Virus record (IMG/VR): IMGVR_UViG_3300043427_001767
Span: 1-39,728 of that record
Source of the DNA: a virus
Direction: 5' to 3' (one strand)
DNA length: 39,728 nt
The first letter of the stretch is position 1, and each line of letters starts with the position of its first letter. The notes under the pieces were generated by a model. The model ran no database searches, was not told the origin of the DNA, and saw nothing but the letters and a program-made list of their open reading frames with translations. Positions 30,056 to 30,421 of this stretch are shown here, one piece after another. The translations under genes were made by a program, and so were the position numbers.

Positions 30056-30421
30056 CCGGGGCGGGGTGGCAGCGGGGCACAGCGGTAGCAGGAGGTGCTG
30101 CCCGACCTGAACCGTGTGCCCGACCTTTCGGCCCGACCTTAGGGAGGTTGGTCACCGCCGAAAACCCAGTCCCCACCTGCCTTCTCTCTACTACTACCCA
30201 ACCTACCCAACCTATAATAATAAAAAGGGGGGATAGGGAAGGAAGGGGAGGAGGAAGGGGACGGGGTTGTGTTTCGGGAAAGTCTGCGGAACAGGTTGGG
30301 CTTGGGCAGGTCGGGCAGCGAGCGGCAAAACCTAGTCACCGCAGTGGATCTCAGCCGTGCCCGACCCCTTCAGAGGCCTGCCCAACCCCATGAGGTTGAC
30401 CCGGTTTCGGCACCGTTGCGC
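30056..30421. other. Non-coding region: candidate replication origin / packaging region
   Basis: 366 nt without a supported gene between the primase-helicase and terminase genes. It contains five perfect GCCCGACC octamers (30100, 30118, 30131, inverted 30309, 30359) and variants GCCCAACC (inverted 30294, 30380). Two perfect tandem TACCCAACC nonamers lie at 30195-30212. These abut an AT-rich TATAATAATAAAAA (30213-30226) and a homopurine run (30222-30261, one interruption). Iteron-like repeats plus an AT-rich unwinding element next to a replication gene suggest an origin; a terminase-binding (cos/pac) site is the main alternative. Confidence 0.6.
30100..30387. repeat. Iteron-like GCCCRACC array
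   Basis: Direct and inverted octamers at 30100, 30118, 30131, 30294 (inverted), 30309 (inverted), 30359 and 30380, plus the tandem TACCCAACC pair at 30195-30212. Spacing is irregular. Confidence 0.65.

Follow-up and report, generated by a model that had tools for sequence, protein, structure and literature searches.

In the pri-rep-ori replicon of SaPI/PICI elements, the origin lies immediately 3' of the initiator helicase gene, with two sets of short iterons placed around an AT-rich region and the primase being fused or adjacent (PMC6092414; PMC7581432). The isolated C-terminal domain of SCCmec Cch2 binds an AAGTG repeat downstream of the helicase gene (PMC7581432), and the α protein of satellite phage P4 has primase and helicase activities and also initiates replication at ori/crr (PMC6092414, PMC7145576). 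The locus described here belongs to a viral DNA of 39,728 nucleotides (IMG/VR record IMGVR_UViG_3300043427_001767, analyzed over its full length and hereafter called the window), and its best reading appears to be an initiator-specific origin of the SaPI/PICI/P4 kind, residing in ordinary cyanophages and having a readable protein–DNA code. Judged from sequence comparison, the intergenic region at 30056–30421 is very probably the phage origin of replication, the iterons of which would be read by the C-terminal winged helix of the PrimPol-VapE protein.

The window is a relative of freshwater cyanophage S-LBS1 (MG271909), the closest named genome (64% identity between the PrimPol-VapE proteins), and DNA-level similarity to named phages is limited to the primase. 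With its terminase, portal, and head-morphogenesis genes, it does not fall among the PICI elements, which are satellites without their own virion genes; the record is listed as linear and has no end repeats. The gap is located between the 3' end of the PrimPol-VapE gene (30422–32599, minus strand) and the 5' end of the small terminase (TerS) gene (29561–30055, minus strand; judged to lie outside the element), and occupies the same place in 160 relatives. The TerS open reading frame has a TTG start codon, and in most relatives the alignment sets in only at residue 7–14, so that its true start is uncertain. The PrimPol (AEP) and VapE helicase fusion (725 residues), showing the Pfam Prim-Pol and VapE-like domains in a single chain, is the proposed initiator, helicase, and primase. 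An origin near the primase is found in Streptococcus thermophilus phage Sfi21. The cumulative GC skew of the window has its minimum at ~27 kb, with a sign change at 27–28 kb, as compared with 30.1 kb for the array, although this comparison is confounded by the coding strand. A 122-residue open reading frame (30025–30393, plus strand) spans the gap and was judged to be probably spurious, because the repeats and their spacing change among the relatives.

The gap contains seven octamers of the GCCCRACC type within 288 nt, two of them inverted: five copies of GCCCGACC (starting at 30100, 30118, 30131, and 30359 on the plus strand and at 30309 on the minus strand) and two of GCCCAACC (30294, minus; 30380, plus). 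This agrees with the first-pass annotation, which had counted seven in 290 nt with five of one spelling and two inverted; dinucleotide shuffling of the whole window (300 times) gave a maximum of three per 290 nt, and 2000 shuffles of the 366-nt gap gave at most two. The whole-window count (10 versus 5.4 expected) is a modest enrichment, and the significance rests in the clustering rather than in this number. The window has five exact AGGTYGGGC sites, all inside the gap, and the repeat is better described, on the other strand, as AGGTYGGG[C/T]A. In this form, the iterons include AGGTCGGGCA (30099–30108 and 30117–30126), AGGTCGGGCC (30130–30139), and two tandem copies of AGGTTGGGTA, one beside the AT-rich patch (30195–30204) and the other abutting it (30204–30213), all on the minus strand. 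The second set contains the inverted copies AGGTTGGGCT (30293–30302) and AGGTCGGGCA (30308–30317) on the plus strand, and GGGTCGGGCA (30358–30367) and GGGTTGGGCA (30379–30388) follow on the minus strand. Two weaker members of the family, missed in the earlier annotation, are located at 30145–30154 (AGGTTGGTCA, inverted, plus strand) and 30169–30178 (AGGTGGGGAC, minus strand). The two tandem nonamers TACCCAACC (30195–30203 and 30204–30212) and the AT-rich patch TATAATAATAAAAA (30213–30226, plus strand), a candidate melting site, are present as had been reported. The adjoining tract, directly 3' of the AT-rich patch (30222–30266, plus strand), is indeed purine-rich, but it is not the 40-nt homopurine run claimed before: it extends over 45 nt and is interrupted by one T and one C, with the longest pure run of 27 nt (30235–30261). 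Its score is 37, as compared with 16 at the 99th percentile of background windows.

Relatives were collected by scans with the window PrimPol-VapE and three of its relatives, giving 160 loci with distinct downstream sequences and a dereplicated set of 78 loci for the analyses of layout and covariation; a search of genome contigs gave matches from one Cyanobium bin only. Over the first 400 nt after the primase stop codon, the 160 loci have on average 6.5 AGGTNRG sites, concentrated 0–300 nt after the stop codon, as compared with 0.41 in 5796 background windows. At least three sites were found in 89% of the loci (1.2% of the background windows), leaving ~11% with fewer. The array takes the form of AGGT-N5-R6-G7-N8-N9-N10 repeats in both orientations, and their spelling differs by lineage, being AGGTTAGGCA in S-LBS1, which carries eleven copies of AGGTTAGG directly 3' of PrimPol-VapE, and AGGTAGGGCA, AGGTTGGCAA, AGGTTGGAAC, AGGTGGGGTA, AGGTTGGTAA, and others elsewhere, with the frame AGGT-N-R-G common to all of them. 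A search of the relatives for the exact octamer was misleading for this reason. As to whether the repeats are absent from close relatives, conservation extends to the array and its position, with a lineage-specific spelling, and not to the exact octamer. The AT-rich patch is flanked by iterons on either side in 64 of the 78 dereplicated loci, and a purine run adjoins the patch (median score, 20 versus 8 in background windows), the AT-rich side being 5' on the purine strand in 70 of the 78; the AT enrichment is modest in GC-rich genomes. The AT/purine core points toward the primase gene in some loci and away from it in others, with at least eight switches on the tree. Since such free flipping is unexpected of a directional promoter or terminator and possible for an origin, it argues against the former.

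Distances between iteron sequences were set against distances between the proteins, segment by segment along the primase, with a control for the remainder of the protein. Residues 651–725 correlated with the iteron distance (partial r, 0.48; 0 of 500 permutations; 78 loci), and under the same control none of the segments 1–200, 201–400, 401–570, and 571–645 showed an iteron correlation in these loci, placing a sharp edge near residue 645. This edge coincides with the start of the C-terminal domain (residues 646–725; 30425–30664, minus strand), which is the proposed iteron reader. The domain is predicted to be a winged helix (pLDDT, 84.5; alignment built from the loci only, without S-LBS1), with helices at 655–664, 675–682, and 692–704 and wing strands at 707–714 and 717–724. 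The best solved match of the whole-protein model is PriRep1 with double-stranded DNA (PDB ID: 7pds). The reader alone gave only weak RpoN-domain matches in a PDB sequence search (E ~0.8), none in Foldseek at E ≤ 0.001, and generic winged-helix matches in VIA-align (Z, 5–6, including 7pds at 5.4); because these last matches are generic, no family is claimed from the reader alone.

For both N5 and N8, the strongest single column is located in the wing. Residue 718 (Arg in the window; codon at 30446–30448, minus strand) is Arg with G8 in 33 of 37 loci, the exceptions to Arg718 being four of the 37 loci with A8, and L057; Leu is found with A or T and Gln with C or A, and Leu, Gln, and Ser are never paired with G8. 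Residue 709 is Arg with A or G at N5 in 29 of 30 loci, and Lys mostly with T (34 of 45). Independent pairs on the tree of residues 1–640 run ~11:0 for Arg709 with A/G5 and ~8:0 for Arg718 with G8, all in the direction predicted. In held-out prediction trained only on loci more than 35% divergent, the single residues gave the correct letter in 59 of the 78 loci for N5 (baseline, 32) and 60 of the 78 for N8 (baseline, 25). The window protein has Gln709 (codon at 30473–30475, minus strand), and at N5 the window iterons carry either C or T; of two other Gln709 proteins, that of L005 goes with T and that of L039 with a C/T mixture. Among close pairs, the reader has changed 2.2 times as much as the body when the iterons differ, and 0.93 times when they are alike.

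A natural exchange of both partners is seen in loci L252 and L052, whose primases are 97% identical over residues 1–640 and ~49% identical over the last 75 residues, with the iterons being AGGTAGGGCA and AGGTTGGCA, respectively. Nucleotide identity between the two falls at the start of the domain and recovers ~275 nt past the stop codon; the reader domain and the array have been replaced together. In L347 and L335, the primase bodies are 95% identical and the readers ~61%, possibly representing a second exchange of the reader, a weaker case at the protein level. As the reader and the array are adjacent and can move together, as in L252/L052, part of the covariation may be linkage. That it is nothing else, with a recombination hotspot carrying the 3' end of the primase gene and the gap without any direct reading, seems to us unlikely: the covariation stops sharply at residue 645 instead of fading with distance, single residues match single letters repeatedly in distant clades, and a distantly related plasmid protein fits both predicted residues. 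Together, the sharp edge at the start of the domain and the recurrent residue–letter matches argue for direct reading. This plasmid is p2-NIES88 (3117 bp) from Microcystis aeruginosa; of its two annotated genes, one codes for a VapE-family protein with Arg at both predicted positions. Downstream of the VapE gene, AGGTAGGGCA iterons form two sets, mainly of opposite orientation, that flank an AT-rich stretch of ~80 nt, a layout suggestive of a rep-ori module that drives autonomous plasmid replication.

Two further explanations concern the genes on the other side of the gap. The repeats were alternatively proposed to be a recognition site (pac/cos) of the small terminase, the gene of which starts where the gap ends in the window; headful phages often have such sites close to terS. 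Among the relatives, however, the array keeps its place immediately after the primase gene, and TerS/TerL are found from 0.36 to ~5.6 kb downstream or are undetected within 6 kb; its position is thus not tied to terS. In addition, the array covaries with the C-terminus of the primase, and the same repeats are present on p2-NIES88, a plasmid without an annotated terminase. A terminase site is therefore disfavored and appears very unlikely. The gap also lies upstream of the structural operon, and a sigma-like gene is present at 26090–26872, so the repeats might be the operators of a transcriptional regulator for a late operon beginning with terS. This we regard as very improbable, as the core is found in both orientations relative to the genes with at least eight flips on the tree, the covariation points to the primase-helicase rather than a separate regulator, and the array is badly placed for autoregulation, being downstream of the gene of its reader. 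The sigma-factor-like protein (Sigma70_r2; minus strand) is encoded within the structural gene block. By comparison, the earlier proposal of an origin with the neighboring PrimPol/VapE protein as its initiator gains support from the presence of the array 3' of the gene in ~89% of the 160 loci, the covariation confined to the C-terminal domain, the swap in L252/L052, and the array on the 3.1-kb plasmid.

According to the origin reading, PrimPol-VapE produced from the gene directly upstream would recognize the AGGTYGGG[C/T]A iterons via its C-terminal winged helix, in which, as judged from the fold, the constant AGGTnRG core would be read by the conserved helix 3 and the variable letters by the variable wing, N5 through residue 709 and N8 through residue 718. 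Binding would be followed by assembly of a ring and melting of the AT-rich patch, and synthesis would be primed by the PrimPol domain at the N-terminus of PrimPol-VapE. The reader and the array would evolve, and could be exchanged, as one cassette. Such an origin would resemble those of SaPI/PICI in its position directly 3' of the helicase gene (0–300 nt in the 160 loci), in the two iteron sets flanking an AT-rich region (in the window and 64 of the 78 loci), and in an initiator uniting primase and AAA+ helicase, as indicated by the fused protein and the 7pds fold match. Unlike the satellites, the carriers are tailed cyanophages of the S-LBS1 type and a small plasmid, the core is polar (AT-rich, then purine-rich), and the iterons have a lineage-specific spelling on the constant AGGTnRG frame with a traceable residue–letter code. 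SCCmec Cch2 likewise has its repeat downstream of the helicase gene and a C-terminal domain as the reader, which is here predicted, but it belongs to another helicase subfamily (Primase_Cterm/D5_N) and has only three iterons. The likeness to P4 α lies, by description and not by sequence, in one protein serving as primase, helicase, and initiator, as proposed here. The text of the S-LBS1 paper (PMC6157547) mentions neither repeats nor a replication origin, and nothing relevant was found in the literature on cyanophage iterons.

We lean slightly toward a broader view, in which cyanophages and some cyanobacterial plasmids hold a broad set of origin specificities, with the wing reading the variable letters by a simple residue–base code and the reader and origin being exchanged as a cassette of ~500 bp. 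If this is true, iteron spelling would define replication compatibility groups among co-infecting phages, satellites, and plasmids. Should the origin reading be right, the replication origins of these cyanophages, a group widespread in fresh and marine waters, could be located from sequence alone, and initiator specificity could be predicted from two residues. A layout described as unique to phage satellites would also extend to ordinary phages and a tiny plasmid. The loci, including the domain swap, form a natural data set for testing a joint change of initiator and origin specificity, which is otherwise hard to observe.

Several Nostoc and Phormidium plasmid relatives have no obvious array directly after the gene. 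Repeats of their own, following the winged helix or the gene, are found in pAL20115c, a Microcystis NIES-298 plasmid, and Gluconobacter pGO128, and in phages vB_Pae_U5, PS3, SamW, and S-2L; pGO128 and the four phages were inspected for repeated words only. In pAL20115c, six copies of AGGTTGAGTAG (3564–3834) lie inside the 3' part of the annotated VapE coding sequence, just past the winged helix, and the annotated sequence reads through these likely iterons. Six copies of ACCGTTGTC are located in the tail of the annotated VapE coding sequence of the NIES-298 plasmid (4094–4197). Differing arrays occur just downstream of the VapE-type primase/helicase in Pseudomonas phage vB_Pae_U5, Corynebacterium phage SamW, and Marinobacter phage PS3, with one more small gene before the repeats in vB_Pae_U5; this arrangement may be a general one in phages that have a VapE-type initiator. 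Cyanophage S-2L (MW334946), the 2-aminoadenine phage, has a 360-nt gap after PrimPol (5015–5373), in which GTGCCAC-type repeats are arranged around a CCCCCCCCC...GAGAGAGAAAAAAAGGGGG core, and this gap may be its origin.
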